From Agrobacterium tumefaciens (lineage in GTDB: Bacteria; Pseudomonadota; Alphaproteobacteria; Rhizobiales; Rhizobiaceae), in contig NZ_CP115843.1 in the NCBI RefSeq assembly GCF_013318015.2, forward strand, positions 496,001-560,000: a DNA stretch of 64,000 bases, read 5' to 3'. Positions 32,178 to 50,761 of this stretch are shown here, piece after piece. Both the position numbers and the translations under genes were made by a program. How positions within the stretch are numbered: position 1 is the stretch's first letter; each line of letters begins with the position of its first letter. The notes below the pieces were generated by a model. It had not been told where the DNA came from, made no database searches, and worked only from the letters and a program-made list of their open reading frames with translations.

Positions 32178-32984
32178 TCAAATAGTCAGTAGGTCTTTAG
32201 CTGGAAGCGAATTGTCATGTCTTTCGAGAAACTCCACCATGGCAGCCTTGAGCGCCACGCCACTGACGCGGGTCCTCATCATATCCCTGGTCAGCGTCGC
32301 AATGATCTCGGCAGCTTCGCAGACCGGCAGACCACCATCCCTGATATTGGAGACACAATTTCGGCTGGAATCCAGGTTTCCCGACTTGGGACCGTAAGTG
32401 ATGTAAGCACCGAGGCTGTCGGCAGCTGAAAGTCCCGGACGTTCGCCGACAAGCACGATCGTCAGTTTTGCACCTAATGCCTCACCGGCAGGATCGCCGA
32501 GCGCGACGCGCGCCTGGCTCGCCAGCACAATTGGTGCAGCGGTCAGGTTCAGGATAGCGAGCTTCGGAACAAGCGCCTCGATCAACGGCACGGCATTGAG
32601 ATCGATCGCGTGGGACGACAGGCCATCCGCGACGATAATTGCGACATCATAGCCATTGATCGTTCTCTCATGTTTCAGCCGTTTTTCGGATTCCGCCGCA
32701 AGCCGCCGGCCAAGATCCGGCCGCCGCACATAGGTGCTGCGGTCACTTGCCATGCTATCGACATTGACAGCCGGAAGGCCGAGACGATCGAGCCTGTCTG
32801 CCAGCGAGGGCCGGTCGACGCTCGTCCAGACCGCTTCGCGTGCCCGCGCGTGGTCGAGAAGGAAGGCAAGTTGAGCGCGTGTCGGAAGACCCGCGCCATG
32901 ACGGCCGAGCGAAACACGCGCATCGGTCATATCCTTGATAGTGAGGTTTTTTCCGGCAGCAGTGGGTTCTCTCACCTCTTCCAT
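32178..32984 (-). CDS. eutC: Ethanolamine ammonia-lyase small subunit
   Basis: 268 aa. Together with EutB it binds adenosylcobalamin and converts ethanolamine to acetaldehyde and ammonia. Family landmarks: RVSLGRHGAGLPTRAQLAF near the N-terminus, IIVADGLSSHAI, LVGERPGLSAADSLGAYITY and NCVSNIRDGGL. It follows eutB with one base between stop and start. It ends the long minus-strand cluster that begins with a peptide-type ABC transporter. No microcompartment genes or EutA-type reactivase are present in the window. Confidence 0.95.
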   Translation of the reverse strand: MEEVREPTAAGKNLTIKDMTDARVSLGRHGAGLPTRAQLAFLLDHARAREAVWTSVDRPSLADRLDRLGLPAVNVDSMASDRSTYVRRPDLGRRLAAESEKRLKHERTINGYDVAIIVADGLSSHAIDLNAVPLIEALVPKLAILNLTAAPIVLASQARVALGDPAGEALGAKLTIVLVGERPGLSAADSLGAYITYGPKSGNLDSSRNCVSNIRDGGLPVCEAAEIIATLTRDMMRTRVSGVALKAAMVEFLERHDNSLPAKDLLTI

Positions 32985-32985
32985 G

Positions 32986-34377
32986 TCAGGCTCCGATCAA
33001 TGCGCTGTTGCGGACATAATTGGAAAGCGCGACAGGCTCGCCGACCAGCGCGCCATCTGGATCGGTCAGGCCGATTTCGAAAAGCCATTTCTCGAACTCT
33101 GGTGCGGGTGGCCGCTTCAGCGTCTCGCGGCAATAGACGGCATCGTGATGCGATAACGACTGGTAGTTCAGCATGATATCGTCGGCGCCGGGAACGGTGA
33201 TGACGAAATTGACATTGGCTGCGCAGAGGAGCGTCAACAGCGTATCCATGTCTTCCTGATCAGCATCGGCATGGTTGGTGTAGCAGACGTCGACGCCCAT
33301 CGGCAGGCCAAGGAGCTTGCCGCAGAAATGATCCTCGATGCCGGCACGGATGATCTGCTTGCCGTTGAACAAGTATTCCGGCCCGATGAAACCGACGACC
33401 GTATTGACGAGCAGTGGATCGAACTCGCGCGCCACGGCATAGGCACGTGCCTCCATCGTCTGCTGGTCAACGCCGAAATGCGCATCGGCCGAAAGCGCCG
33501 CGCCCTGCCCAGTCTCGAAATACATGACGTTTGCGCCCGGCATGCCACGACCAAGCGACCGCCCCGCCTCATGTGCCTCCTTCAGAAGCGCCAGATCGAT
33601 GCCGAAGCCGCGATTGGCCTTTTCCGATCCCGCCACCGACTGGAAGACGAGATCGACCGGCGCACCGCGTTCGATTGCCTGGATCGCCGTCGTTACATGG
33701 CCAAGGCAACAGGTCTGTGTCGGGATCGCAAGCTTTTCCCGCAATTCGTCGAGCAAGGAAACGATGCGGATATAGTCATCCGTCGCATCGGTCGCGGGAT
33801 TGACGCCAATCACGGCATCTCCCGACCCCATCAGCAGCCCGTCGATGGCAGACGCGATGATACCGCGGCTGTCATCGGTCGGGTGGTTGGGCTGGTTGCG
33901 GGTGGAAAGCCGCCCGGCGAGCCCGATCGTGTTTCGGAATCGCGTCACGACACGTCGCTTGGCAGAAACAGCTATCATGTCCTGCAGGCGCATGATCTTC
34001 GACACGGCCGCGACCATTTCCGGCGTCAGTCCGAAGGTCACCGCCTCCAGCCGCTCATGCGACGTCTCGGGCTTGAGCAGCCATTCGCGCAATTCACCGA
34101 CAGTAAGCGAGGAAACTGCGGAAAAGGCTGCCGGATCGTGCCGTTGCGCGATCAGTCGGGAAACCTCGTCATCCTCCGACGAAATGAGCTCCTCGCCGAG
34201 AAATGCTTTCAAGGGGAGATCGGCCAGCGCCATCTGGGCTGCCAAGCGCTCGACCGGGCCTTGCGCCGCAATGCCGGCCAGCTGGTCGCCGGAGCGCTCC
34301 GGGGTTGCTTTCGCAAGCAGCATTTTCAAGTCATCAAAGCGGAAGACAGTCTGCTCGATTGTCGTCGTATAGGGCAT
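32986..34377 (-). CDS. eutB: Ethanolamine ammonia-lyase large subunit
   Basis: 463 aa, full length, a TIM-barrel subunit holding the substrate. Landmarks: NPATDATDDYIRIVSLLDEL, QTCCLGHVTTAIQAIERGAP, MYFETGQGAALSADAHFGVD and GLPMGVDVCYTNHADADQED. It is coupled to eutC (next gene) and preceded by the phosphatase gene 9 bases upstream. Acetaldehyde from this step would need a dehydrogenase; none is in the cluster, though an aldehyde dehydrogenase lies at 7965-10361. Confidence 0.96.
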   Translation of the reverse strand: MPYTTTIEQTVFRFDDLKMLLAKATPERSGDQLAGIAAQGPVERLAAQMALADLPLKAFLGEELISSEDDEVSRLIAQRHDPAAFSAVSSLTVGELREWLLKPETSHERLEAVTFGLTPEMVAAVSKIMRLQDMIAVSAKRRVVTRFRNTIGLAGRLSTRNQPNHPTDDSRGIIASAIDGLLMGSGDAVIGVNPATDATDDYIRIVSLLDELREKLAIPTQTCCLGHVTTAIQAIERGAPVDLVFQSVAGSEKANRGFGIDLALLKEAHEAGRSLGRGMPGANVMYFETGQGAALSADAHFGVDQQTMEARAYAVAREFDPLLVNTVVGFIGPEYLFNGKQIIRAGIEDHFCGKLLGLPMGVDVCYTNHADADQEDMDTLLTLLCAANVNFVITVPGADDIMLNYQSLSHHDAVYCRETLKRPPAPEFEKWLFEIGLTDPDGALVGEPVALSNYVRNSALIGA

Positions 34378-34386
34378 TTGTTCACG

Positions 34387-35175
34387 TCACCGGTTGAGGA
34401 GGGCCAGGGCTTCGTCATGAAGTCTCGGGGTGGCCGACGCCAGAACCCGTCCGTCGGAATGGATCGAAAGCGCATTTCCCCGCCAGTCCGTAATGCATCC
34501 GCCGGCACCCGTCACAACGGGCACGAGAGCCATGTAGTCGTAAGGTTTAAGTCCCGTCTCGAGAGCGATGTCGCAATGGCCGGAAGCGATCAGACCATAG
34601 ATGTAGCAGTCTCCACCGAAACGCCGCAGCCTGGCTTTGCGGGAGAGACGCTCGAAGCTTTCAGCTTCGATGTCCACGAACATATCCGGCGAAGTCGTAT
34701 AAAAACGGGCGCTGGAGAGGTTTTCGCAGCCGCTGGCGTGGGCCGGCTTGCCAGCAAAGAGTGTCTCTCCCGGCCGGCCCTGCCAGCGTTCGCCGGTGGC
34801 TGGAATATCGATCAGACCACAGAATGGCTTTTCCTGAAATGTCAGTGAGACAAGCGTACCAAACAGCGGGAAACCGGTGATGAAGCTCTTGGTGCCGTCG
34901 ATCGGGTCCAGCACCCATGTAAAGGCGTTACCTGCCTTTACGCCGAACTCCTCACCATGGATGCCGTGATCGGGAAAACGCGCCTCGATCATCTCGCGGA
35001 GATGTTTTTCGATCGTCCGGTCGGCGATTGTCACCGGGCTATCGTCGAGTTTTGAGATCACGTCGAGCGGGGTCCGGAAATAGGAGAGCGCCAGCGGACG
35101 CGCGGCGTCGGCAAGTTCCGCGGCGAAGGTGATATAGGTCGCAGCTTCTTGCGGGCTGATATCGGTGACTGGCAT
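34387..35175 (-). CDS. Inositol-monophosphatase / histidinol-phosphatase-like enzyme
   Basis: 262 aa, Mg-dependent phosphatase of the IMPase family. It shows SPVTIADRTIEKHLR, the metal site GEEFG, the signature LDPIDGTKSFITG and the C-terminal PYDYMALVPVVTGAGG (the usual WDxxAG Asp is in PYDYM). It is closest in layout to HisN-type phosphatases, but there are no histidine genes here. Start ATG 35175 overlaps the stop of the kinase gene (ATGA). Between two kinases and EutBC, it may remove a phosphate from an ethanolamine-containing intermediate; this is inferred. Confidence 0.85.
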   Translation of the reverse strand: MPVTDISPQEAATYITFAAELADAARPLALSYFRTPLDVISKLDDSPVTIADRTIEKHLREMIEARFPDHGIHGEEFGVKAGNAFTWVLDPIDGTKSFITGFPLFGTLVSLTFQEKPFCGLIDIPATGERWQGRPGETLFAGKPAHASGCENLSSARFYTTSPDMFVDIEAESFERLSRKARLRRFGGDCYIYGLIASGHCDIALETGLKPYDYMALVPVVTGAGGCITDWRGNALSIHSDGRVLASATPRLHDEALALLNR

Positions 35176-36110
35176 CAAAGGGCTTTCAGGAACAGGGGCC
35201 AACGGGGGTCGTGGATGATCGAGCGGGCGCGCATATGCTTCCAGATTCCGTACTTGTAAAAGTCGAAATCGAGGGTCGATATCCGGTTTTGTACCATCGC
35301 CCAGGTGCTCCACTTGATGTCGGCGAGTGCCTTGTGGACGATGAAGCGAGCGTGATGCGCCTTGTCGTAACGACCGAAATACTCCTCGATTATCTCGCAG
35401 TCGGTCGCCTCGGAATAGAACATCTCGCCACTCCAGATCGCGAGATCGTAGAGCCTCTCATTATTCGACGCATATTCGAAATCGATCAGCTTGATCGACT
35501 TGTCGTCACCGATCAGGAAATTGCCCGGCATCGGGTCGTTGAAACAGGGAACCAGATCGAGCCCGGATGCCTCAAGCGCGGCGCGCGCCTGTCTGTAGTT
35601 GCGCAAGAGCCAGTCGTGGTCGAGCGGCCAGTGGCCGTCAAGCTGGCGCACTTGGTCGAAATGTTCCTCGATCATGTCGAAGACGTTTTTGGTCAGCGGC
35701 AGGGCAGGGGCATCGTGAAACTGCCGGTAGACGCGCACCGCTTCGTTGCGGATCGCCGGGTCTGCAAAATCCCTATGTGTCGAGGCGCGGCGACCGTCGA
35801 TGAACTCGGCGATTTCGATGTCGAGGTGATCGAGATAGTCGAATGTCTTCGGGCCGATTCCGATCACTTCCGCCTGCTTGCTGGCGGCAGCGGCGGCCTT
35901 GCGATCGATGAACATCTCGGTGCCGCGGCCGGGAATCTTTAGAAAATACCCACGCTCTTCGCCTTCGACCTCGATGCGGAAATTGGTGTTGCTGATTCCG
36001 CCGGAAACCGGACTGTAGCGCAGCCTCCGTCCTTCCCAAGGTGGTACCTGGATGATTGCAGCCTCAACTGCCCGTTCGGCATCGGATCGTGCCATTCCCA
36101 GTTCATTCAT
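35175..36110 (-). CDS. Choline/ethanolamine-kinase-like phosphotransferase (APH fold)
   Basis: 311 aa. APH/ChoK fold: an N-terminal lobe with SPVSGGISNTNFRIEVEG and a lysine in YFLKIPGRG; the catalytic loop PCFNDPMPGNFLI; and the metal motif KLIDFEYASNNERLYDLA, typical of choline/ethanolamine kinases. The catalytic-loop position that is normally His (HND) is Phe here, while the catalytic Asp is kept. It would phosphorylate an amino-alcohol or a related compound. It overlaps the phosphatase gene by 1 base and lies 47 bases after a second kinase gene. The substrate is inferred from the EutBC context. Confidence 0.85.
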   Translation of the reverse strand: MNELGMARSDAERAVEAAIIQVPPWEGRRLRYSPVSGGISNTNFRIEVEGEERGYFLKIPGRGTEMFIDRKAAAAASKQAEVIGIGPKTFDYLDHLDIEIAEFIDGRRASTHRDFADPAIRNEAVRVYRQFHDAPALPLTKNVFDMIEEHFDQVRQLDGHWPLDHDWLLRNYRQARAALEASGLDLVPCFNDPMPGNFLIGDDKSIKLIDFEYASNNERLYDLAIWSGEMFYSEATDCEIIEEYFGRYDKAHHARFIVHKALADIKWSTWAMVQNRISTLDFDFYKYGIWKHMRARSIIHDPRWPLFLKAL

Positions 36111-36157
36111 AGGCTTGTTCCCGTTATTGTTTCTAGCCCGTTATCGTTCTCGTATGC

Positions 36158-37123
36158 CTAGAGCGCTCTCAGCCTGGCCTCGAAATCCGGCTGGCCGAGC
36201 AGCATTCGGCAACGCAGGAACCGCCAGCCGGCATATTTCAGGAATTCGACACCCCGCGGCGGCGAACGAAGCTCCAGTACGAGGCTGCGCAACGCCCAGT
36301 AGAGGTCGTCTGCCGCCGCATAGACACGGCAGCGGTTGAAGTTTCTTTCGCTGAAACCTCCATCGTGCATTTCCAGCAAGGGCCTCATCTGGCTTTCGAA
36401 CTGGTAGAGTTCGTTCATCTGAACGCCGAGCTGGTAGTAGGGGTCGATGTCGGCGGCCATGTCGAAGTCCACGAGCTGCATTTTCCCGTCTGGGCCCAGC
36501 ATGACATTCGAAGCCTGCGGATCACCATGGGCCGGTTTCAGGTCCACGCCGGCCGCTGAAACTGCCTCGCGGATCGGCGTCATCCAGGAGAGCATCCATT
36601 CGACATCGCCGGGCAGGCTGGTGGCATCGGCACTCACGATCGCCCACAGCTGATCGATGCCGTCGAAGACTGACCATGTTCGGCCGGTGGAAACACCCCC
36701 TGCGATCGTCGTCTGCATCTCGATCAGGCGGGCAACAGTTTTCGGCTGCATCAGATCGTCGATCCTTGCCGCTCGCCAGCCGTCGCCAAGTCGGGCAATC
36801 AGCATGCTGGCCGTCCCGGCATCGTAACCAATCGGCTCTGGCGAAAGACCAAGGCTGTGAAAACGGTGTGCCGCAGCATTTGCGGTCTCGGCATCCACGA
36901 GATCGGTTACCTCATCGGCACCGAGACGCAGGAAATAACGTGCCTCCCCGTCTGTCGGCGCGACCACGAAACCGCAGGATTCGACGGCATGATAGGACGG
37001 CGATGCGACAGCTGCCGTCGCCGGCGCATAGGAAGGGGTGTCGCCAATCACTGCGGAAAAGACTGAAAGCGCCTTCTCCGCGCGGGCTTCCATCGGTGAT
37101 TGAGGAGAGCCCGATCTCTTCAT
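36158..37123 (-). CDS. Second APH-fold phosphotransferase
   Basis: 321 aa. APH fold with the catalytic loop AHGDPQASNVMLG (HGDxxxxN intact) and the metal motif MQLVDFDMAADIDPYYQLG. The N-terminal lobe is divergent. It is clearly related to, but distinct from, the kinase encoded next. Its start overlaps the stop of the M20 amidohydrolase gene (ATGA). Two adjacent kinases suggest either a heteromer or two substrates. Its precise substrate cannot be read from the sequence. Confidence 0.8.
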   Translation of the reverse strand: MKRSGSPQSPMEARAEKALSVFSAVIGDTPSYAPATAAVASPSYHAVESCGFVVAPTDGEARYFLRLGADEVTDLVDAETANAAAHRFHSLGLSPEPIGYDAGTASMLIARLGDGWRAARIDDLMQPKTVARLIEMQTTIAGGVSTGRTWSVFDGIDQLWAIVSADATSLPGDVEWMLSWMTPIREAVSAAGVDLKPAHGDPQASNVMLGPDGKMQLVDFDMAADIDPYYQLGVQMNELYQFESQMRPLLEMHDGGFSERNFNRCRVYAAADDLYWALRSLVLELRSPPRGVEFLKYAGWRFLRCRMLLGQPDFEARLRAL

Positions 37124-38409
37124 TCGGCAGCCTCGCTGAGTTCGACAACTTTCAAACCTTCGCAGGCGATCTTGTAAAGCATGTCCGCCACTATCTGCGT
37201 GCCAAGAGCCTGGTCTTCAGGCGAGGTATACTCGGTTGGGTGGTGGATGACGCCGTCACGGCTCTGAACCGCCAGCACCACCGCCGGGCAGACATCGGAA
37301 ACGGCAACGGCATCATGGCCGCCGATCGTATCGAGGTGACGGGCGCTCTGGCCGAGATGCGCCGCAGCACTTTGCGCAAGCGTTACCAGGCCCGGCGCGA
37401 ACCTTCCCGCCTTGCGGCGGTCAATGGAGCGGACCTCCGAGGTGACGCCGGCTTTCATCGCCGCTTCCTCGATCTTGATCTTCATCTTGCGTTCCGCCTC
37501 CGTCAGGACGTCTGGCGATCCCGAGCGCAGCTCGATGAACAGCACGGCTTCGGCCGGCACGACATTGGGTGAATTGGGGAAGACTTCCAGGCGGCCAACC
37601 GACGTATGCAGGTCCAGCCCGTGTTCGGTCGATATCTGCTTGAGATCGGCGATCAGATAGGCAGCAGCAAGCAGCGCATCCTTGCGATCGGCCATCGGGG
37701 TTGCGCCGGTATGTGCCTGGCGTCCATGGAAGGCGAGGCGATATTTTGTCGCGCCCCAGAACCGCGTGAAGATACCGAACCGCTCCCCGGCGCGGCTGAG
37801 CGTCGTGTCACCTTCTATATGCAGCTCGATCAATGCGTCGGGAATTTCCACCTTTTCCTTGCCAGCATAACCGATCTCGTCCAGCGACTGGCGCACCGTA
37901 ATGCCATCGCCGTCGGCCCGTTCCAGCGCCCATTCCAGGTCAATGGCGCCGGTAAACACGCTGCTGCCGAGCAGGCTCGGCTGGAAACGGGCGCCTTCCT
38001 CATTGGTCCAGTTGACGATCTGGAAGTTGCAGGCGGACAACCTGCCTTCCGCCTTGAGACGTTCGCTGACGGACAAAACCGCCTCGCAGGCGGCTACGAC
38101 TCCAAGCGCTCCGTCGAACCGGCCGCCGTTCGGCTGGCTGTCGATATGGGAGCCGACCATGACGACGGGCGCATTTGCGCCCGCCAAGGTCATCTTGCCG
38201 AACTGGTTGCCGATCGAGTCCACGGCCTGCTCGAAGCCGTTTTCGGCAAACCAGTGCCCCAGCCAGTCGCGCGCCATTCCGTCTTCCCTGGAAAGCGTCA
38301 GGCGGGTCATCGAGCCATCGGGGCCGCCGCCAAAAGTGGAGAGGGTCTCCATCAGCATCTGGAGCCGCTCGGCATTGATCGGGACAGGGGAGGAGGAGAC
38401 GTCAGGCAT
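37120..38409 (-). CDS. M20-family Zn amidohydrolase (allantoate/N-carbamoyl-amino-acid hydrolase type)
   Basis: 429 aa. Two-metal amidohydrolase of the HyuC/AllC/beta-ureidopropionase group. Metal ligands: His and Asp in GSHIDSQPNGGRFDGALG, Glu pair in NEEGARF, His in LIELHIEGD, and the last His in GVIHHPTEY. The dimer/substrate loop GRQAHTGATPMADRKDAL is intact. The segment after HIE, normally QGP, reads GDT, which may alter specificity. It hydrolyses an N-carbamoyl, ureido or N-acyl bond. It starts inside the deoR gene's end (8-base overlap) and leads directly into the kinases. Confidence 0.88.
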   Translation of the reverse strand: MPDVSSSPVPINAERLQMLMETLSTFGGGPDGSMTRLTLSREDGMARDWLGHWFAENGFEQAVDSIGNQFGKMTLAGANAPVVMVGSHIDSQPNGGRFDGALGVVAACEAVLSVSERLKAEGRLSACNFQIVNWTNEEGARFQPSLLGSSVFTGAIDLEWALERADGDGITVRQSLDEIGYAGKEKVEIPDALIELHIEGDTTLSRAGERFGIFTRFWGATKYRLAFHGRQAHTGATPMADRKDALLAAAYLIADLKQISTEHGLDLHTSVGRLEVFPNSPNVVPAEAVLFIELRSGSPDVLTEAERKMKIKIEEAAMKAGVTSEVRSIDRRKAGRFAPGLVTLAQSAAAHLGQSARHLDTIGGHDAVAVSDVCPAVVLAVQSRDGVIHHPTEYTSPEDQALGTQIVADMLYKIACEGLKVVELSEAAE

Positions 38410-39163
38410 GTATGATTTCCACTTTGGATTGATTGAATTGATCTGAAAATTCCCGCGCGATGACGCCGCTGGTCACCACCGCGTCGATTTCGCTGAGGCC
38501 GAATGTGTGGATGGAGCCGAGGCGACCAAACTTGGAACTGTCGGCAACAATGATCGAACGTTTTGCCTGGGCCTTGGCGACGCGTCGCAGGATCGCCTCG
38601 TCCTCGCCGAAATCCATGAACCCGCGTTCGGCGTGAATGGCGCTGATGGCGATGATCGCGAGATCGAAGAAATGCTCCTTCAGCGCGGCCACGGTCTCAT
38701 GGCCGTATGTCGCCTGATAATCTGGGCGCATGCGACCGCCAAGAACGCGCACACTTGCCTGCGGCAGATTGAAGAAGTGGGCTGCGACCGCCAGCGAATT
38801 GCTGACAACGGTCAAGTCCCTGCGCGTCTCGATATGTTTCAGGCAGGCAATCGTTGTGGTGCCGGTATCGATGAACACCTTCATGCCGTCCTCGACCAGC
38901 GACGCTGCGGCCTCGCCGATCTTGGCTTTCTCGCGTGAGCTGACACGCAGTCGGTCGGTAAACGGCTGATCGCTTTCCTGCTGGTCAAGGACCGCGCCGC
39001 CATAGACGCGGCGGGCATAACCGCGCATCTCAAGTTCCTTGAGGTCGCGCCGGATCGACTCCTGGCTGACCTGCAGATAATCGGCAAGCTCCCTCACATT
39101 GACGCGCTGGGTTTGCTTCAGCATGTCGAGGATAAGCTTGAGGCGATGTTCGGTGAAACTCAT
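38402..39163 (-). CDS. DeoR-family transcriptional regulator
   Basis: 253 aa. N-terminal winged helix (VNVRELADYLQVSQESIRRD, residues 21-40) and C-terminal DeoR sensor domain (DGMKVFIDTGTTTIACLKHI; SNSLAVAAHFF; GFMDFGEDEAI), which usually senses a phosphorylated small molecule. It lies between the transporter genes and the enzyme genes, and its end overlaps the amidohydrolase start. The kinases encoded downstream could make its inducer. Candidate binding repeats lie before the first transporter gene at 44640-44670. Confidence 0.9.
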   Translation of the reverse strand: MSFTEHRLKLILDMLKQTQRVNVRELADYLQVSQESIRRDLKELEMRGYARRVYGGAVLDQQESDQPFTDRLRVSSREKAKIGEAAASLVEDGMKVFIDTGTTTIACLKHIETRRDLTVVSNSLAVAAHFFNLPQASVRVLGGRMRPDYQATYGHETVAALKEHFFDLAIIAISAIHAERGFMDFGEDEAILRRVAKAQAKRSIIVADSSKFGRLGSIHTFGLSEIDAVVTSGVIAREFSDQFNQSKVEIIHA

Positions 39164-39221
39164 GAATGCACCCTGGATTCTAGTGATCGTTGCGGCCCCG
39201 TCTGTGGCGCCGCAACCATGG

Positions 39222-41057
39222 TCAGGCTAAAGCCATTTGACGGGTTGCGTCATCGAGAGCCAATGGCTGGATGAGATGACAGGCGGCGAAATCCTGGCTG
39301 CCACGCGCGGTAAGCGCGGGCTGCAGGCTGCCGCATCTCTCCATCGCACGCGGACAGCGCGACTTGAAGCTGCAACCTGGAGGAATATCGATCGGGCTTG
39401 GCGGTTCACCTTCCAGAAGGCAGTCTTCCGCCTTGTAGCGGCGTTCTTCAAGTGTCGGCATCGCGCTGAGCAACGCCATTGTGTACGGATGTCCGGGATC
39501 GAAGAACAACCGCTCGTTATCAGCCAGTTCGAAGACCTCGCCGAGATACATTACCGCCACACGGTTGCAGACCTTGCGGACCATCGCAAGGTCGTGGGAG
39601 ATGAAGATGTAAGTGAGGTCGTATTCCTTCTGCAGCTTCTGGAAAAGATCGAGAAGCTTGAACTGTTCTGTCTGGTCCAGGGCAGAAAGCGTTTCGTCCA
39701 TGATCAGTATTTCAGGCTCCAAAACCAGCGCACGGGCAACATTGATGCGCTGGCGCTGGCCGGCACTCAGGCCGATCGGCAATTCCTCGTAGAGATCGGC
39801 GGAGAGGCCGACTTCGCCCATGACCTTGAGAACCCGCTCACGAATTTTGGCACTGTCCTTCCATCCGTGCGTGCGAAGCGGGCCCTCCAGCATCTTCCCG
39901 ACCGATGTGCGTGGCGGCAGGGAACCGAACGGATCCTGAAGTACCATTTGCAGCTTCTTGCGGAAGGTCAGAAGGTCTTTGCCACCGAGCATGGCGATAT
40001 CGTCGGCACCGCACAGAACCTGGCCGGAGCTCGGCAGTTCCAGCCTGCTCAGAAGCCGCATCAGCGTCGACTTGCCACAACCGGATTCACCGACGATCGC
40101 GAAACTGTCGCCGCGCCGGACATCGAAGGTGACGTTGCGAACCGCACGCACATGGTTGAAGCCACCGAAGCCGGTCTTCTTCTTTACCCTGTAGACCTGT
40201 GAGGCATCGCGCAGGCTCAAGACAACGTCGCGTTTGTCGTTGAGACGCGGCATCTCGGTCTTTTCGATCCAGATCTTCGGCGTCTGTTCTACAAGCTCTT
40301 TCGTATAGGCATATGCAGGGGCGGCGATCAGCCTTTCGGTTTCCTGTTCCTCGACGATGCGACCTTTCTCCATCACCAAAATCCTGTTGCAGGCTTCGCG
40401 GGCAACGGGAAGCGAGGAGGAGACGAACAGCACAGCGGTATTGAAACCGTCGGTCAGTTCCTTCATCAGACGGATGACCTGGGCTGCGACGGTAACGTCG
40501 AGCGGCTGGGTGACATTATCTGCAATCAGCAGCGCCGGGTTCGTCACCAACGCATCAACGATCAGTGCGCGCTGCATCATGCCGCCGGAAAACTGCGAAG
40601 GATAGTCGCTGAAACGGCTGCGGGCCGAGGGAATGCGGACGGCCTCCAGAAGCTCGATCGTGCGCTTTTCCGCCTCTTTCCGCGAGGTTCCTGGAACGAC
40701 CGCACGCAGCTTCTCGACGATCTGGACGCCGACCGGCAGCGTCGGATCGAGTGCACCCATCGGATTGGCGCCGACATAGGCGACCCGGCGGCGCAGGGTA
40801 CGCATCTCGTTCTCGGAGATGCCGTAAATATCCTTGCCTTCGAAGAGGACGCTGCCGGAACGCACGGAAAGCGGCGGTTCCAGCCAGTTGACGACTGCCT
40901 TGGAAAGCACCGTCTTGCCGGCTCCGCTGGCCCCGACCACACCGACGATCTCTCGCGGCGCGAGGCTGAAGGAGATATTGTCCAGAATAATCTTCGCCTT
41001 GTCCGAGCGACCGGCATTAACGGTGAGGTTTTTCAGCTCAAGAAGCGGCTTGATCAT
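39222..41057 (-). CDS. Peptide-type ABC transporter ATPase, DppD-DppF fusion
   Basis: 611 aa, two oligopeptide-type ABC domains in one chain. Domain 1 has Walker A GASGAGKT and Walker [13 protein letters not shown] (Asn instead of the catalytic Glu). Domain 2 has Walker [10 protein letters not shown], signature [15 protein letters not shown] and Walker [13 protein letters not shown]. It ends with the oligo_HPY region ([29 protein letters not shown]). Domain 1 uses [11 protein letters not shown] as signature. ATG 41057 overlaps the permease stop; the GTG extension to 41168 lies inside the permease gene. It powers import of the cluster's substrate. Confidence 0.92.
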
Positions 41058-41974
41058 CACTCGGACCCTCCATGAATGGTGTTGCGGGCCCGTTCCAGCG
41101 AAGCGCCTATGAGATTGATGCTGGTTAAAGTGAGGCCGAGGAAAATGCCGGGCATGGTAGCGATCCACCAGGCGTTCAGAAGATACTTTCGGCCATCGGC
41201 AATGATATTGCCGAAGGTCGGGGTCGGCGGCTGGACACCCAGGCCGAGGAAGCCGAGTGTCGATTCAAAGATCATCATGCGCGCCACATCAAGCACCGAG
41301 GTGAAGATCACCGGCGGCAGGAGCAGCGGCAGAAGCAGGCTGACGATAATGCGGAAATCGGTCGAGCCCCCAAGTTTGGCAGCGCGCACATATTCCCGCT
41401 GCCTTTCCGTCATCACAATGCTGCGCATGATGCGCGCATAGACCGGCCAGCTTGAGAGACCAAGCACCAGGACGATGGCCGGAATTGTCGGGCGCGACAC
41501 GCCAAGAACGGCGATCGCCAGAATGATCATCGGGATAGACAGCTGCGCATCGGTCAGACGCATGATCAGCATGTCGATACGACCGCCGAAGTAACCGGCG
41601 ATCGTGCCGAGGGCACAGCCGATGATGAGTGTCACTGCAACCGATGCAATCCCGATCAGGAAGGAGTAACGCAGGCCGACAAGCGACCTCACCAGCATGT
41701 CGCGGCCAATCTGATCGGTGCCAAGCGGGTGGCCCCAGCTCCAGTTGTCGCCGAAGAAAAGTGGCGGCAGAAGGCGGGCCTTCACATCCATCTTGGTCGG
41801 GTCGACGCCACTGATTTCCGGATAAAGTGCGGCGGCAATCGCAAGCAGCAGGAAGATCGCAAGGCCAATGCGAAAACCGGGCGTCGATGCGGCGCGATCG
41901 AATATGCGGCGCGCAATCGAGCGGCTTGCCATTTTCGAAATGATCGGGGTGTCGAGTGCGGATGTGATGGACAT
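41057..41974 (-). CDS. Peptide-type ABC transporter permease, DppC type
   Basis: 305 aa. An N-terminal helix (about 35-53) is followed by the PWGHPLGTDQIGRD-like motif (SWGHPLGTDQIGRDML) typical of DppC/OppC, then five further helices. The EAA loop region is RAAKLGGSTDFRI. Start and stop overlap both neighbours by 1-4 bases, so dppB-dppC-dppDF are tightly coupled. Cargo is unknown; the family carries peptides, but also nickel, opines and other small compounds in rhizobia. Confidence 0.92.
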   Translation of the reverse strand: MSITSALDTPIISKMASRSIARRIFDRAASTPGFRIGLAIFLLLAIAAALYPEISGVDPTKMDVKARLLPPLFFGDNWSWGHPLGTDQIGRDMLVRSLVGLRYSFLIGIASVAVTLIIGCALGTIAGYFGGRIDMLIMRLTDAQLSIPMIILAIAVLGVSRPTIPAIVLVLGLSSWPVYARIMRSIVMTERQREYVRAAKLGGSTDFRIIVSLLLPLLLPPVIFTSVLDVARMMIFESTLGFLGLGVQPPTPTFGNIIADGRKYLLNAWWIATMPGIFLGLTLTSINLIGASLERARNTIHGGSE

Positions 41975-42954
41975 CAGTATTCAAGCCTCGGATCGATGGT
42001 TGTTGCGACGAGATCGACGACAATGTTGATCAGTACAAAAATGGCGCTCGTGACGATCGCGATACCCTGGATCAACGGAAAGTCGCGCTGCAGCACGGCA
42101 TTGATGGTCAGAAGGCCGAGTCCGGGATAATCGAAGATATATTCGACGATGATGACCCCGCCGAGCAGGCTGGAGAATTGCACACCGAGCAGGTTGAGAA
42201 GCGGCACCGAGGCGTTGCGCAGGGCATGGTTGGAGATGATCCGCGAACGGCTCAGGCCACGTACGCGTCCGACTGCCACATAGGGCTCCATCATCTGGCT
42301 GGATACGGAACTGACCAGCGTGCGGATCAGCACCGGAGACAATTCGACCGCCAGCACGATTGCCGGCAGGATTGTGTAGGCAAAGCCCTGATAGCCAATG
42401 GCAGGAAGCCATCCGAGCTTCACCGAGAAAAGCAATGCCAGAACGATGCCAAGCCAGAAATTTGGCAGCGAGATGAATATCGATGAGATGTAGAAGGCAA
42501 GCTTGTCTGGCCATCTGCCGATCGCAAGCCCGCCGGCAATGCCGATGATTGCCGAGAAGATCAGTGCAATCACCAGCGTCACGGCCGCCAGTTGAAGCGT
42601 CATTGGAAGTGCATCGAAAATCAGGTCGAAGACCTTTGCTCGTTCGCCTCGAGTTGAGTCGTTGAATGTCGCGCCACCGGTCGAGGCGCCGTTTGCCGGG
42701 CGCACGAAGGACTGGCCAAGATCGCCACGAACCACACCGCCCATGTAGCGACCGAATTGCACCAGTATGGGATCGCGAAGGCCCATGTCGGTTGCGATCT
42801 TTTCGATCAGTGCTTCGGGCGCCATGCCGCCCGCCATAAGGCGTACCGGGTCACCCGGCACCACCCGCAAGAGGGTAAAGATCAGCAAGGACACAAGGAA
42901 TATGATGATGGCGCCCTGCATGAGGCGTCGCATCAGGAAGTTCACGGCAAACAT
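41974..42954 (-). CDS. Peptide-type ABC transporter permease, DppB type
   Basis: 326 aa. N-terminal FLMRRLMQGAIIIFLVSLLI helix, the DppB motif VVPGDPVRLMAGGMAPEA, and five further helices. The periplasmic loop (residues 85-115) carries a polar insert around NGASTGGATFNDSTRGER. The EAA loop reads VAVGRVRGLSRSRIISNHAL. It starts 71 bases after the binding-protein stop and overlaps dppC. Confidence 0.92.
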   Translation of the reverse strand: MFAVNFLMRRLMQGAIIIFLVSLLIFTLLRVVPGDPVRLMAGGMAPEALIEKIATDMGLRDPILVQFGRYMGGVVRGDLGQSFVRPANGASTGGATFNDSTRGERAKVFDLIFDALPMTLQLAAVTLVIALIFSAIIGIAGGLAIGRWPDKLAFYISSIFISLPNFWLGIVLALLFSVKLGWLPAIGYQGFAYTILPAIVLAVELSPVLIRTLVSSVSSQMMEPYVAVGRVRGLSRSRIISNHALRNASVPLLNLLGVQFSSLLGGVIIVEYIFDYPGLGLLTINAVLQRDFPLIQGIAIVTSAIFVLINIVVDLVATTIDPRLEY

Positions 42955-43025
42955 TCAGTCACTCCGCTCGAGAAGTCACGGGCAAGTCCACACGCCGCCT
43001 GATCGCGGCGTGTGGCTGATCACGG

Positions 43026-44609
43026 TCAGGCAGCAGGTTTGGCGGCATCGATCGACCCGTCGGGATAGATGTACATGCCCTCAAAGTCCTTCTGCATTGC
43101 GTGGATCATCACGGATGTGAACAGCGAGAGTGCCGGCATCTTGGCGGTGATGAGAGGCATGGTCTCTTCCTGAAGGATCTTCTTGCGCTCTTCCAGCGTT
43201 GGTGCCGAACGTTCCTTGTCGAGGCTGGCATCGATCTCCTTGTCCTCGATGCCGCAGATGCGGTGCGAAGTGGAATGGAAATGGGTGCGCAGGACCAGAT
43301 CCGGTTCCGGAGACGCTGTCGACCAGCCGCAATCGACCATATGGCCCGGGCCGCCACCGGGGCGATGATAGAGTTGCTCGTTCCAGGCCGCAGGTTCAAG
43401 CACGGTCAGGCTGACGTTAAATCCCTGCTCCTGCAGCATGGCGGTCAGCATCTCGCCATATTCCTTGGTCTTCGGATAGAAGCCGACGGACGTGATGTAT
43501 TCAAGTGGCGGCAGGCCCTTGCCGTTTGGGAAACCGGCTTCGGCGAGCAGAGCCTGGGCCTTCTCGGGGTCGAATTTCGGGTAGTTCGCCAGATCGACAT
43601 AGCCGAATTTGACCGGCGAGACGAAGTTCGACGAGGCATGGCCGGCCGAGCCCATCAGTTCCATGATCATGTCGCGATCGATCGAATGGCAGGCGGCAAG
43701 ACGGATACGCGGATCGTCGAAAGGCGGTTTCGAGCAGCGGAACCAAAGATACTTGTTCTCGACGGAAACGACCTTGTTGATGAAAATCGCCGGATTGTCC
43801 TTGATCGTGTCAACCTGTTCAGGCTCCAGACGTTCAACGATCGAAGCCTGGCCGTTCATCAGCGACAACATACGGGTGGTGGAGTCGCCGGTGAAGGTGA
43901 AGTTGATGCCGGGGATGGCCGGCTTGCCCTTGAAGTAGCCGTCATAGGCCTGCATCACGGTGTCGTTGCCGCGCTGTTCGACGAATTTGAAAGGACCGGT
44001 GCCGTTGAGCCGCTGGGAGAGCGGGCCGCCGGGGCCGCCGGCGACGTCCTTGGCCGACATGATCGGCAGGAACGACGCAAGAAAGACGAAGAGATGGGCC
44101 GGATAGCCGCCCTTGGATGTGTCCACGATGACGGTGTAATCGTCCGGTGTTTCGATCGTCAGCGTCTCGGTCGGGCCGGGATACCACTGCGCCGGACGAT
44201 CTGCCCTGGAGCCGTATTCGAAGGTTGCCTTGACGTCTTCCGCCTTGAACGGCTTGCCATCATGGAAGACGATGCCTTCGCGCAGCTTGATCTGTAGCCG
44301 GTGCGGGTCAAGCAGCTTGATGTCGGTGGCCAGTTCGTAGACGACCGCGCCGGGATCGTCGAGTTTCATCGGCGTGCGGGTAAGAAAGCCCATGACGAAA
44401 CCTTCGATATTCTTCTGAGAAAGTGTCGTATGAGCGGTCGGGTCCCAGTTGCCGGTGATGTTTTCGGCCGACAGGAACGTCATGGTCTTGCCGGCCTGTG
44501 CGAAGGCCGGCGAGATGAAGAAGTCAGGATTGATCTGCATGTAGCCAGCGACGACGGCTGCGCCCGCGGATCCTTGCAGGAAGCGACGACGACTGAATTC
44601 TGAACCCAT
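43026..44609 (-). CDS. Peptide-type ABC transporter substrate-binding protein (SBP_bac_5), Tat-exported
   Basis: 527 aa. The N-terminus SRRRFLQGSAGAAVVAGY is a twin-arginine signal, so export through Tat is likely. The body is an SBP_bac_5 (DppA/OppA) receptor: LREGIVFHDGKPFKAEDVKA, FKFVEQRGNDTVMQAY and RLAACHSIDRDMIMELM. It binds the cluster's substrate in the periplasm. First gene of the long minus-strand cluster; a pair of direct repeats lies 31-62 bases before its start. Confidence 0.92.
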   Translation of the reverse strand: MGSEFSRRRFLQGSAGAAVVAGYMQINPDFFISPAFAQAGKTMTFLSAENITGNWDPTAHTTLSQKNIEGFVMGFLTRTPMKLDDPGAVVYELATDIKLLDPHRLQIKLREGIVFHDGKPFKAEDVKATFEYGSRADRPAQWYPGPTETLTIETPDDYTVIVDTSKGGYPAHLFVFLASFLPIMSAKDVAGGPGGPLSQRLNGTGPFKFVEQRGNDTVMQAYDGYFKGKPAIPGINFTFTGDSTTRMLSLMNGQASIVERLEPEQVDTIKDNPAIFINKVVSVENKYLWFRCSKPPFDDPRIRLAACHSIDRDMIMELMGSAGHASSNFVSPVKFGYVDLANYPKFDPEKAQALLAEAGFPNGKGLPPLEYITSVGFYPKTKEYGEMLTAMLQEQGFNVSLTVLEPAAWNEQLYHRPGGGPGHMVDCGWSTASPEPDLVLRTHFHSTSHRICGIEDKEIDASLDKERSAPTLEERKKILQEETMPLITAKMPALSLFTSVMIHAMQKDFEGMYIYPDGSIDAAKPAA

Positions 44610-44639: not shown

Positions 44640-44670
44640 GTCAAATCAGTCAAAACGGTCAAATCAGTCA
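44640..44670. repeat. Two perfect direct repeats before the transporter operon, candidate DeoR sites
   Basis: GTCAAATCAGTCA occurs at 44640-44652 and again at 44658-44670, a spacing of 18 bases from start to start. In the direction of transcription the unit is TGACTGATTTGAC. It lies 31-62 bases before the start codon of the binding-protein gene. DeoR-family repressors often bind short direct repeats near promoters, and a deoR gene is in this operon. The link is inferred. Confidence 0.5.
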
Positions 44671-45526
44671 CAAGCAAACAGCGTGCCAATCTCGATTTCC
44701 TGCGAGAATCGCGCTTTCGGTTTGATGCAATTTGTGGGATCTGACCATTTATTGGTCGAATGAGAAAGATTTAAGCGACCAGCCGGATCGCTAAAATTAC
44801 GGGGTCATTTCTGCCGTTGAATCGGGGGATGCTGATCCGTTGTCAAATTGTGTCCGAAACGGACAGCGACGATGATTGCAAGCGCCGCCGGATTGAAACT
44901 CTCACGAGAGTTCAACTGAATATTTCGTTTGCTCTTTTGATGGCGTGAATACATCAACAGCGGGCAGTACATCCGCCGATCCATTTCGTGCATGCCCGCC
45001 CGCATTTTTGCTGCGGTCTCATCTCTCTGCCGCCTCAGTTGATCACTTCATCCTTCATAGTGATTAATGCTCTACGATGGGTGATCGCGGTTATAGTGAC
45101 GTCGCCGGCAGGGGCTGTCGATTCCGTCGTTTCACGCTGGCCTGGCCTCAGTAAGGAAAATAAGAGCAGGACCAGAAGAAGGTTCTTGCCATGGCAATTG
45201 GCCGTCTTTCACCGCCCGAGAGGTTTAGGCCATGCTTGCCGACCTCACTGGTAAGGCCGCTCGGTATGGCAACGGTTCGGTCATAAATAGCAGCCTGCAT
45301 ATTGCGTGTTTACGGCTGATATCAGCCGCTATCCTGCTCTTTCAATATCCCGATGAACTGCTCGTCCGCGAATGCCTGGCGTTGCCCGTCTCTTCAGGGT
45401 AACCGACCCTACCAGGATCGAAGGTCGTTTTGCGGCTCAGATCACCGGCCACCTGCCGGAAGCCAGTTAGATTGCAGGCGTCCAGTTGCCCTGCGCGACG
45501 TGATTGAAGGTCCCACCTGAGTGGGT
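44671..45526. other. Long intergenic region without a supported gene
   Basis: About 850 bases between the Dpp-type operon promoter and the end of the polyol operon. No frame has a recognisable motif or convincing ribosome site; a plus-strand frame at 44988-45254 looks spurious. A perfect inverted repeat TGTCCG-AAA-CGGACA lies at 44851-44865. The stretch 45120-45520 may be old coding material but could not be assigned. Confidence 0.4.
44851..44865. promoter_or_regulatory. Perfect inverted repeat TGTCCG-AAA-CGGACA
   Basis: Six-base arms around AAA, giving a 15-bp dyad with the size and symmetry of a repressor operator. It lies about 240 bases before the Dpp-type operon start. No regulator can be assigned to it from the sequence. 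Confidence 0.3.
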
Positions 45527-46579
45527 TTAAATCAACCTCAGTCCCGTGCCGGGATCAAACACGTGTAGGTCGGACGATGCCACTTCAACACCAAGCACCT
45601 CGCCGATGGCGGGTCTTATGTCTGCTGGAACAGAAATATTGATCTCGTGGCGGTCGTTTTTCAGGCAGATCAGACGTGTCTCACCGTGGAACTCGTTCCG
45701 CTCGACGGTGCCGCGAAAGGCTTGAGCATCCTGGTTTATGCGAAATGATCCGGGCCGAATTCCAACGGTAACCTCACCGGAACGGAGGCCTGCCGGAGCT
45801 GTAAACCTGACAAGATTGTCGCCCAGCCACTCCTGCGTCATCTGCAACTGAAGAAAATTCATGTTCGGTGTGCCTATGAAGCCGGCAGCAAACACTGTCC
45901 GAGGCGCCTGATAAATTTCTTCGGGCGTGCCCATCTGCTCAATACGGCCGTCCTTCATCAGGACAATACGGTCGGCAAGCGTCATGGCTTCGAGTTGGTC
46001 GTGAGTGACATATATGCTTGTCGTTTTCAGGTCGCGGTGGAGGCGCGCGATCTCGACCCGCAGGCTGCCGCGCAGCTTGGCATCAAGGTTTGAAAGCGGT
46101 TCGTCAAACAGGAAGACCTCCGGGGTCTTGATCATGGCGCGGGCGATGGCCACTCGCTGCTGCTGTCCGCCGGACAGTTCCGTCGGCTTGCGCGCAAGAT
46201 AGACGCCAAGACCGAGCGCGTCGACCACAGGCGCCAGGCGCTGATCGATCGCGGCTTTTCCTATTCCGGCCCTCTCGAGACCGAAAGTGATATTGTCCCG
46301 CACGCTCATATGGGGGTAAAGCGCGTAGTTCTGGAACACCATCGCGATGCCCCGGTCACCCGGATCGCGATCGTTCATCCGCTCGCCACCGATGAGCAGA
46401 TCCCCGCCTGAAATCTCTTCAAGCCCGGCAATCATCCGCAGCATGGTGGATTTTCCGCAGCCTGACGGGCCGAGAAAGACGACGAATTCGTGGTTGTCGA
46501 TCTTCAGGTCAAAATCCCGCATGACCTCAAGCGAACCATAGACTTTCCTGATCCCCCGGCACTCAACAGTGGCCATCAC
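45527..46579 (-). CDS. Sugar/polyol ABC transporter ATPase (MalK/UgpC type)
   Basis: 350 aa. Walker [10 protein letters not shown] (about 37-45), signature [15 protein letters not shown], Walker [12 protein letters not shown], and a C-terminal TOBE/OB region (about 235-350, TVGIRPGSF) typical of MalK-like ATPases, where regulatory proteins dock. It overlaps the dehydrogenase stop by 4 bases. Last gene of a five-gene polyol operon. Confidence 0.92.
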
Positions 46580-47622
46580 TTCGTCTCCCCGTCCACGACG
46601 ATCTGCAGCTTTACGTCCTCTGGCCGGCCTTCGGCCGCCCTTTCGAAGGCCTTGATCGATTGATCAAAGGCATAGGTGCCGGAAACCAATGGCTTCAGGT
46701 CGACCTTGCCTGCGGCGATCAGCGCCAGTGCACGGTCAAACACGTTGGCGTAGCGGAAAACCGTTTCAATACGGCATTCGCGGAAGCAGGCCGCCGCAAG
46801 GTCTACCGCGACGGGTTCGGGCGGCAGACCGACGATAACGACTGTTCCGCCCGGGCGCACGACCTTGAAGAGATCACGGACCGCGGCCGGTGCGCCGGAG
46901 CATTCAAAGACGATATCGGCTCCCCAGCCTTCTGTCGCCTCGTTGACGGTCTCAATGACATCGACCTCCTTGAGGTTGATACCAGTGATGCCGCCATAAC
47001 TTTCGGCCAGTTTAAGTTTTGTTGCGGAAATGTCCGAGATCAGCACTCGCGAGCAGCCGCCGGCAAGGGCAGCCAGTGCCACCATGATGCCGATGGTTCC
47101 GCAGCCTGTAACAACCGCCGTATCGCCGGGCGTGATCTTCGCCCGGGCGGCCGCCTGCATGCCCACGGCAAATGGTTCAACCATCGCGCCTTCGGCGAAG
47201 GAGACATTGTCAGGCAGCTTGTATGTGAAGCTTGCCGGATGGACTGTCTCCGGGCACAAGACGCCGTGCACCGGCGGCGTTGCCCAGAATGTCACGGCAG
47301 GATCAACATTGTAGAGGCCGAGCCGCGACGCACGCGATTTCGGATCGGGGATGCCCGGTTCCATGCAGACGCGGTCGCCGGGCTTAAGATGGGTGACGTT
47401 GGCGCCGGTCTCGGTGACTGTTCCTGCTGCCTCGTGGCCGAGAACCATGGGCGCGTTCACGACGAAGTCACCGATGCGACCATGGGTGTAATAGTGTACG
47501 TCGCTGCCGCAGACGCCAACAGTATGGATACGAATGCGAACGTCATCCGGCCCCAACTCTTGAGGAATTTCGATATCGCGCAGGGAAAGTTCGCCGACAT
47601 GTTCGAGGACAAGTGCTTTCAT
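46576..47622 (-). CDS. Zinc-dependent polyol dehydrogenase (xylitol/sorbitol type)
   Basis: 348 aa, medium-chain dehydrogenase. The catalytic zinc ligands are in [17 protein letters not shown] and MVEPFAVG; the NAD fold motif is [19 protein letters not shown], with Asp in ISD, which favours NAD over NADP. The structural-zinc loop has lost its four cysteines ([17 protein letters not shown]), as in xylitol dehydrogenases and mammalian sorbitol dehydrogenase. It would oxidise a polyol such as xylitol or sorbitol to the ketose. It lies inside the transporter operon, so it acts on the imported compound. Confidence 0.88.
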
Positions 47623-47629
47623 GGGTCAG

Positions 47630-48448
47630 TCAACCTTGGTCAGTTTTCTTGGAAAATGCGGCGTTGAGGCCACCGGCAAGCACTCCGAGCAGGATCAGCG
47701 GTGGCAGCGACAACAGGACGACGGCGGCGTTCAGAATTCCCCAGGGCACATTCATGCCGAGCTGCGACATCTCGGACGCGATGATCGGCAGGGTCTTTGC
47801 CTTCGAGGTCGTGAGCATCATGGCAAGCAGGAACTCGTTCCAGACAAGGACGAAGGAGAAGGCAATGGCGCCGAAGACCTGGAAACGGGCAATCGGCAGG
47901 GCGATGCGGAAGAAGGTCGCATATGGGCCAAGCCCATCCACCCGGGCAGCTTCTTCAACGTGAAGGCTGACACGCTCGAAAGCCGGCACGGAAAGCCAGA
48001 TGGTGATCGAGGCTGTCACAATGAGATAGGTCACGATCAGCGACAGCCGGGTGTCATAGAGATCAAGACCGAGCCAGATGACCAGCATGGGAATAGCGAT
48101 CGCGACGGGCGGCAGAAAGCGCAGCGACAGAACGAAGAACTGCGCCTCCGCCGTGATCCTGTTCTTGAACCGGGCGATCACATAGGCCGCCGGTACACCG
48201 AGTACGGCGCCAAGCACGACCGCACTCGAGCAGATGATCAACGAATTGGTAAGTGCGCGCGCCACCGAGCGGCGATTGAGCACATAACTCATATTGTCGA
48301 AGACAGGCTGGAAGATAAGCTTTGGCGTTGACACCAGCAGATCGGCATTGGTCTTGAAGGCGTTTAGCAGGGTCCATAGGAGTGGCAGCACGACAAGTGC
48401 AGCGGCAAGAACCAACAAAAGCCTGAGCAGAAAGGTGGATATCTTCAT
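47630..48448 (-). CDS. Sugar/polyol ABC transporter permease (MalG type)
   Basis: 272 aa, six hydrophobic segments. The cytoplasmic EAA loop reads EEAARVDGLGPYATFFRIAL (about 160-180), and the N-terminal part has PLLWTLLNAFKTNADL, common in MalG-like permeases. Start overlaps the stop of the MalF-type gene (4 bases). The dehydrogenase gene follows 7 bases after its stop. Confidence 0.9.
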   Translation of the reverse strand: MKISTFLLRLLLVLAAALVVLPLLWTLLNAFKTNADLLVSTPKLIFQPVFDNMSYVLNRRSVARALTNSLIICSSAVVLGAVLGVPAAYVIARFKNRITAEAQFFVLSLRFLPPVAIAIPMLVIWLGLDLYDTRLSLIVTYLIVTASITIWLSVPAFERVSLHVEEAARVDGLGPYATFFRIALPIARFQVFGAIAFSFVLVWNEFLLAMMLTTSKAKTLPIIASEMSQLGMNVPWGILNAAVVLLSLPPLILLGVLAGGLNAAFSKKTDQG

Positions 48449-49308: not shown

Positions 49309-49375
49309 GGCAGATCCTCGGATTGGGAAAAAGGGGCGCGTCATCAGACGCGCCCGTCAGACGGCTTGGGAGGCG

Positions 49376-50626: not shown

Positions 50627-50761
50627 GATGTCCTCCCTGAATGGCAACTCCCTTGCCATCGACCAGCCCACATTTACGCGAGCGACGGGCGCGTACTAGT
50701 TTGCCTCCGTCACAGAACTGGTATTATATTGACATTTGTGCGCTGTAACATGAGCAATTGA

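Follow-up and report, generated by a model that had tools for sequence, protein, structure and literature searches.

An Agrobacterium operon that sets an M20 amidohydrolase and two kinases beside ethanolamine ammonia-lyase: a candidate for nitrogen scavenging from ethanolamine amides

The window analysed here is a 64,000-nucleotide stretch of Agrobacterium tumefaciens DNA (RefSeq assembly GCF_013318015.2, contig NZ_CP115843.1, positions 496,001 to 560,000), whose minus strand carries eleven open reading frames in a row between positions 32178 and 44609. They encode a peptide-type ABC transporter, a DeoR/GlpR-family regulator, an M20 amidohydrolase, two kinases (termed kin1 and kin2), a HisN-like phosphatase and the two subunits of ethanolamine ammonia-lyase, EutB and EutC. 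We give an even chance to the reading that this operon scavenges nitrogen from an amide or ureide of ethanolamine, or of a near amino alcohol, via phosphorylated intermediates. Ethanolamine or a near relative is probably the end product; that the compound entering the M20 active site is phosphorylated is doubtful rather than likely. Directly observed are the gene set, its conservation, the kept catalytic residues and a promoter-like site at a fixed place. A literature search, judged largely on titles and abstract openings, found no published description of this gene set.

As we picture the pathway, expression of the operon is probably driven by sigma-54 and would be controlled by its DeoR protein. 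The operon's own Dpp/Opp-type ABC transporter would import a soluble amide or ureide with an ethanolamine (or close amino-alcohol) unit, and kin1, together with kin2, would phosphorylate a hydroxyl, either on the intact substrate or on its amino-alcohol portion. Cleavage of the amide or ureide bond would fall to the M20 enzyme and removal of the phosphate to the HisN-like one, after which EutBC would convert the free ethanolamine into ammonia and acetaldehyde. Where relatives of the operon have a phospho-lyase-like enzyme, this may act directly on the phosphorylated amino alcohol, replacing both the phosphatase and EutBC.

An initial annotation, made from the sequence alone, had described eleven same-strand genes of these families, and both the open reading frames and the family scores confirm it (Table 1). 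EutB (PF06751, 682 bits) and EutC (PF05985, 283 bits) also pass the curated ammonia-lyase models, at 671.4 bits against a cut-off of 554 and 290.4 against 230, respectively. The alignment of EutB to 2qez, from Listeria, scores 472 bits and extends over RNQPNHP, YFETGQG and DVCYTNH, which we take to be the active-site stretches. For kin1, Choline_kinase is matched with 89.3 bits (cut-off 29), and the closest relative in the Protein Data Bank (PDB) belongs to the choline/ethanolamine kinase family (101 bits); kin2 passes the APH cut-off (29.2 bits against 23.2) and falls below that of Choline_kinase (26.6 bits). The M20 enzyme passes NF006772 (707.7 bits; cut-off 424) and likewise TIGR01879, which are subfamily models only. 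Its identity as the allantoate amidohydrolase AllC was ruled out, with 179.5 bits for TIGR03176 against an equivalog cut-off of 597.75. The phosphatase passes the histidinol-phosphatase equivalog TIGR02067 (288.7 bits; cut-off 275.15). Because another protein of the same genome (G000:C2:1099105) scores higher, at 316.2 bits, the biosynthetic role more likely falls to that protein than to the one in the operon.

Plasmid NC_015184.1 (pAspH13-3a) carries the identical eleven genes in identical order. Its annotation names no pathway, the labels being ABC transporter parts, DeoR/GlpR regulator, Zn-dependent hydrolase, phosphotransferase, choline/ethanolamine kinase family, histidinol-phosphatase, EutB and EutC. 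With gene starts as annotated there, four joints overlap, by 1 base each (hisN/kin1, ATPase/permease and permease/permease) or by 8 (M20/DeoR), so that the earlier description of tight packing with overlaps of 1-8 bases was right in substance. The remaining joints are gaps of 1, 9, 26, 47, 58 and 71 bases. M20 and kin2 are separated by the 26-base one; if kin2 is started further upstream, as in the open reading frame list, the two genes overlap by 4 bases instead. No phospho-lyase is found among the eleven genes, nor are shell proteins, EutA, EutH or EutR, the latter four having been looked for within the operon only. An Eat-type permease and an acetaldehyde dehydrogenase are neither among the eleven nor annotated adjoining eutBC in NC_015184.1.

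The initial annotation had suggested looking for the same gene order in other genomes, and this order does recur. A kin1 scan of one genome collection returned 55 loci (numbered L), to which a kin1 search of 385 genomes of the class and a kin2 search of 297 genomes of the order added more. The first eight genes stand in the same order in 36 of the 55 loci and all eleven in 15 (hand count), which argues that the arrangement is not due to chance. M20, kin2 and kin1 occur together in 52 of these 55, the exceptions being L051, L056 and L057, and the core usually has a DeoR regulator and the genes of an Opp-type ABC importer as neighbours. The kin2 gene adjoins kin1 on its upstream side in 80 of 83 loci; L056 and L057 show kin1 only, and the two tandem kinases of L165 both match kin1 best. 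The raw locus counts for the core and the kinase pair, as well as those given below for the sigma-54-type site, hold a few repeats, as L018/L167, L052/L157 and part of L147/L170 are regions fetched twice.

Dereplication at 93% kin1 identity, with sufficient flank required, gave 51 clusters, among which L003 represents the window; five paralogous kinase rows, five short-flank loci and 22 near-copies had been excluded. M20 lies close by in 50 of the 51, DeoR in 42, a binding protein of the operon's own type in 38, HisN in 29, EutB in 18, an amidase-signature amidase in 14 and a phospho-lyase-like enzyme in 4. The core thus consists of M20 and the kinase pair, while the importer and the endings differ from cluster to cluster. 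Of 72,556 plasmid records, 93 hold relatives of kin1 (E 1e-20 or better), 42 of them below 60% identity; 32 of the 93 plasmids come from Agrobacterium and 30 from Rhizobium, and conjugative transfer is predicted for 48, so that the pathway is probably mobile. Some loci carry additional genes beside the core. In L150 (5097-6889), genes for a Peripla_BP_5 binding protein and a regulator of AmiR (ANTAR) type adjoin it divergently, with the same families in L151 and L153, and a protein resembling the dimethylformamidase beta subunit (DMFA2_C), a further amide link, lies near divergent core copies in L052 (1814-3961) and L149 (4144-6534).

HisN accompanies EutB in 18 of 18 clusters, whereas it is found in 11 of the 33 without EutB (Fisher test, 2.4e-6, relatedness not corrected); L044, with eutB pieces on the far side of its cluster, was scored as lacking EutB. 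In a EutB tree of 49 rows, seven of them small loci repeating cluster copies and assigned to the cluster by hand, 21 of 23 cluster copies form one clade (100/100, branch 0.56), which also holds the second EutB of the window genome. The copies of L049 and L050 fall in a different part of the tree, and EutB is therefore read as having been recruited to the cluster at least twice. On the kin1 tree, built by a quick method, EutB has to change 8 times, in 4 cases because supported branches require it. Together with the loci carrying a phospho-lyase-like enzyme described below, the two EutB lineages and the constant presence of HisN bear out the earlier claim insofar as the combination of an amide-cleaving enzyme and a kinase/phosphatase set with EutBC is not a one-genome accident. 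The second EutBC of the window genome lies on another contig (L171:3963-10298; G000:C2 about 153960-160300), beside glycerol-kinase-like, FAD oxidoreductase and type 2 glycerol-3-phosphate-oxidase-like genes, all below NCBIfam cut-offs; judged by eye, this trio also adjoins the divergent kinase pair of L165.

A different ending is found in six loci (L154, L159, L160, L161, L168 and L169), where the stretch lacks EutB and contains a class III pyridoxal-phosphate (PLP) enzyme whose identity to the L160 one is 68-100%. The L159 enzyme matches the bacterial phospholyase 5g4i with 386 bits and the ethanolamine-phosphate phospho-lyase 6tor with 336, the next chains following at 185. The best NCBIfam model for the L160 protein is the unnamed PRK06148 (485.5 bits; cut-off 1128). 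A PbfA-type phosphonate lyase was considered and rejected, as the L160 protein reaches 205.7 bits against a PbfA cut-off of 525 and the L159 enzyme is nearest to phospho-lyases. HisN is present in one of the six loci and, after dereplication, near one of four phospho-lyase clusters versus 28 of 47 others (P 0.30). Such scarcity would be expected if the phosphorylated compound were used directly, but four clusters are too few to tell. The genome of L160 (G572) carries EutB elsewhere, and L160 itself has genes for a glutamine-synthetase (GS)-like protein and an iron alcohol dehydrogenase near the core (by Pfam; the GS-like protein passes no NCBIfam cut-off), relatives of which occur in L108 (33% and 54%, respectively).

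Across the 297 genomes of the order, the kinase pair was called at a kin2 match of E 1e-30 or better, which held for 24 of 37 genomes with a kin2 match; the 13 weaker ones were counted among the 273 others, and since the genomes are related, the P values are too small. A phospho-lyase (E 1e-120) is present in 14 of the 24 pair genomes versus 38 of the 273 others (P 2.6e-6), and either EutB or a phospho-lyase in 18 versus 86 (P 5.6e-5). Tallied by genus by hand, either ending occurs in 11 of 16 versus 31 of 107 (P 0.0035). The window genome itself has no phospho-lyase match at this threshold (5 of 16 candidates scored). Outside the cluster, five of ten loci inspected by eye (L186, L192, L194, L196 and L198) have a lone kinase-like gene, from another subfamily, immediately before the phospho-lyase-like gene.

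The core enzymes keep their catalytic residues. In kin1, K58, D192, N197 and D210 are present in 84 of 84 rows; in kin2, N206 and D219 are present in 82 of 82 and D201 in 79. These rows include paralogues and near-copies, sequences with a stop, an X or fewer than 240 residues having been dropped. The beta-3 position of kin2 is Lys in 59 and Arg in 23 of the 82 rows, the window's kin2 having Arg; that kin2 is a dead kinase is unsupported in spite of this, as the residues known for catalytic roles are kept. In the M20 enzyme (rows with a stop or at most 350 residues dropped), all 77 rows keep H88, D99, H197, H233, N282, R295 and H389, and the 76 with a letter at positions 137 and 138 all keep E137 and E138. 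The residue after His-Ile-Glu 197-199 is mostly Gly (56 of the 77), otherwise Gln (19) or Cys (2). From what is known of N-carbamoylases, H233, N282 and R295 presumably bind the substrate and its carboxylate. By this analogy, N282 and R295 could bind an anionic group, either a carboxylate or a phosphate, which makes phosphorylation before cleavage thinkable without demonstrating it.

Ahead of the binding-protein gene lies the window's sole exact match to what we take to be the sigma-54 consensus (0.21 expected), and sigma-54 fits nitrogen control. A binding-protein gene preceded by 150 bases or more of sequence is available in 58 loci; a strict match is present in 17 of these and a relaxed one in 38, with 35 of the latter falling between 55 and 106 bases ahead of the first matched codon. 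Over all 83 loci and both strands, 17 of the 20 strict matches are at the binding-protein gene, and the overall densities are 0.0019 (strict) and 0.030 (relaxed) per 300 bases of one strand. Between this site and the gene, TTTGAC words at -54, -45 and -36 in L003, with similar ones in L005 and L006 and fewer elsewhere, form a candidate operator for the operon's DeoR protein. Rfam RNAs, including riboswitches, were not found in the window at gathering score. A neighbouring ABC cluster on the same strand (45527-50671), which includes a UgpC-like ATPase as well as an alcohol dehydrogenase, is separate from the operon.

Table 1. Genes and putative control elements of the operon, in window coordinates
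Feature	Position	Strand	Basis
Family 5 (Dpp/Opp-type) substrate-binding protein	43026..44609	-	family search, PDB comparison
ABC permease, first	41974..42954	-	BPD_transp_1
ABC permease, second	41057..41974	-	family search
Fused double ABC ATPase	39222..41057	-	family search; start taken from NC_015184.1
DeoR/GlpR-family regulator	38402..39163	-	family search
M20 amidohydrolase, hydantoinase/carbamoylase family	37120..38409	-	family search, residue alignment
kin2, APH-fold kinase	36158..37123	-	family search; NC_015184.1 relative starts 30 bases later
kin1, choline/ethanolamine-kinase-like	35175..36110	-	family search, residue alignment
HisN-like (inositol monophosphatase family) phosphatase	34387..35175	-	start per NC_015184.1; searches used 35172
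eutB, ethanolamine ammonia-lyase large subunit	32986..34377	-	family search, PDB alignment, tree
eutC, ethanolamine ammonia-lyase small subunit	32178..32984	-	family search
Sigma-54-type promoter TGGCAC-N5-TTGC	44674..44688	-	begins 79 bases before binding-protein start codon
Three TTTGAC words, 9-base spacing, candidate DeoR operator	44640..44663	-	read from sequence between promoter site and gene

Several observations weigh against ethanolamine scavenging through phosphorylated intermediates. EutBC is one optional ending of the core, since 33 of the 51 clusters have no EutB nearby and EutB goes unmatched in 8 of the 49 genomes with kin1. The ethanolamine ending put forward in the initial annotation thus stands insofar as EutBC recurs with M20 and the kinases, but in part of the relatives EutBC and the transporter/kinase part do occur separately, which that annotation had itself named as grounds for refutation and which partly refutes it. 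EutB alone is weakly enriched in genomes with the kinase pair (11 of 24 versus 69 of 273, P 0.051), and neither ending is present in 6 of these 24 genomes or near 29 of the 51 clusters. The prediction that EutB-less kin1 genomes would carry a phospho-lyase instead was not borne out: a homologue (E 1e-100) is found in four of eight (G009, G035, G036 and G048), about the rate of EutB-bearing ones (14 of 41). Where both endings are lacking, either other outlets are used or ethanolamine is not the product everywhere. The EutB-HisN association weakens once the tree is taken into account, with a median P of 0.25 from four independent pairs on supported branches (HisN changing in the same direction in 2.8 on average, in the opposite in none and not differing in 1.2). 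In L051, which was left uncounted, the kinases adjoin a eutB fragment of 132 residues, and neither HisN nor M20 was found. Even a relaxed sigma-54-type match is missing near the binding-protein gene in 23 of the 58 loci, including L039, L040, L041 and L043 (Mesorhizobium), L049, L050 and L053 (Rhodobacterales, with a single relaxed match farther upstream in L053), the phospho-lyase loci L154, L160 and L161 (the three testable of six) and several others. Finally, a kinase followed by a phosphatase would be futile unless some step lies between them.

In a different order of events, the kinases would act after cleavage: M20 would free the amino alcohol, and kin1 would phosphorylate it for a phospho-lyase or as a trapped signal recognised by DeoR, HisN serving only to return it to EutBC. 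The gene order (transporter, DeoR, M20, kinases, HisN, EutBC) agrees with this, as do the phospho-lyase-like genes that directly follow a lone kinase-like gene outside the cluster, and DeoR-family regulators often sense phosphorylated compounds. Yet, it accounts poorly for the company of kinases and phosphatase that EutBC, which uses free ethanolamine, keeps in 18 of 18 clusters, and we regard it as an unlikely, if serious, contender. The core might instead handle another hydroxylated ureide or an N-acyl amino acid, with EutBC an accidental or loosely linked neighbour. The many clusters without nearby EutB would then be expected, and the invariant M20 residues H233, N282 and R295, which in N-carbamoylases bind the substrate and its carboxylate, would be in keeping with such a substrate. 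The two EutB lineages in the cluster, the phospho-lyase-like enzyme in other copies and the EutB-HisN linkage speak against this alternative, which we consider decidedly unlikely. Highly improbable, in our view, is detoxification, with the kinases and the amidohydrolase inactivating an imported antimetabolite and EutBC recovering its nitrogen: the APH fold of the kinases and the second amidase class near 14 of the 51 clusters would suit it, but the dedicated importer and the sigma-54-type site better fit scavenging.

Scavenging from an ethanolamine amide or ureide can also be put in a broader form, which we offer tentatively and place on the unlikely side. The core would represent a phosphorylation-gated amide-catabolic module, widespread in plant and soil Alphaproteobacteria, that frees phosphoethanolamine from a common N-(2-hydroxyethyl) amide or ureide. 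It would combine M20 and/or an amidase-signature enzyme with an inseparable kinase pair and use interchangeable endings, namely phosphatase and B12-dependent EutBC, a PLP phospho-lyase, or a GS-like enzyme and an iron alcohol dehydrogenase. If the scavenging pathway is real, ethanolamine would have a source beyond phospholipid head groups, and proteins annotated by family only (Zn-dependent hydrolase, phosphotransferase, histidinol-phosphatase) would gain testable functions. It would also point to a plant or soil nitrogen compound that has so far gone unrecognised as a nutrient.

Parts of the operon resemble known systems. Erwinia and Pseudomonas use a route of amino-alcohol kinase and amino-alcohol-phosphate phospho-lyase, to which the choline/ethanolamine-like kinase here and the phospho-lyase-like enzyme of the six related loci bear a likeness, human ETNPPL and the 5g4i phospholyase being the structural comparison proteins for the L159 enzyme. 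The operon differs in having phosphatase and EutBC in place of a phospho-lyase, as well as an extra M20 enzyme and a second kinase. The agrocinopine acc operon comprises a family 5 binding protein, a DeoR-like regulator, an IMPase-like phosphatase and a phosphodiesterase; the first three have counterparts here, whereas M20, the kinases and EutBC take the place of the phosphodiesterase. Among PDB chains, the operon's binding protein matches dipeptide-binding proteins (up to 107 bits) above AccA (up to 84 bits). The short eut operon of Pseudomonas aeruginosa is described as comprising the acetaldehyde dehydrogenase PA4022, Eat, EutB and EutC (PMC5821096). Both operons have EutBC without adjoining microcompartment genes, but P. 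aeruginosa has a simple ethanolamine transporter and an aldehyde dehydrogenase, whereas the operon described here has an ABC importer, M20, two kinases and a phosphatase, with no aldehyde dehydrogenase among its eleven genes. The gamma-glutamylethanolamide route of Streptomyces coelicolor, which reportedly involves GlnA4 (PMC6529630), is echoed by the GS-like and iron alcohol dehydrogenase genes near the core in L160 and their relatives in L108, but neither gene lies within the operon. Unless the broader reading as a phosphorylation-gated module holds, the operon is best viewed as a variant of ethanolamine utilisation rather than a separate kind of system.

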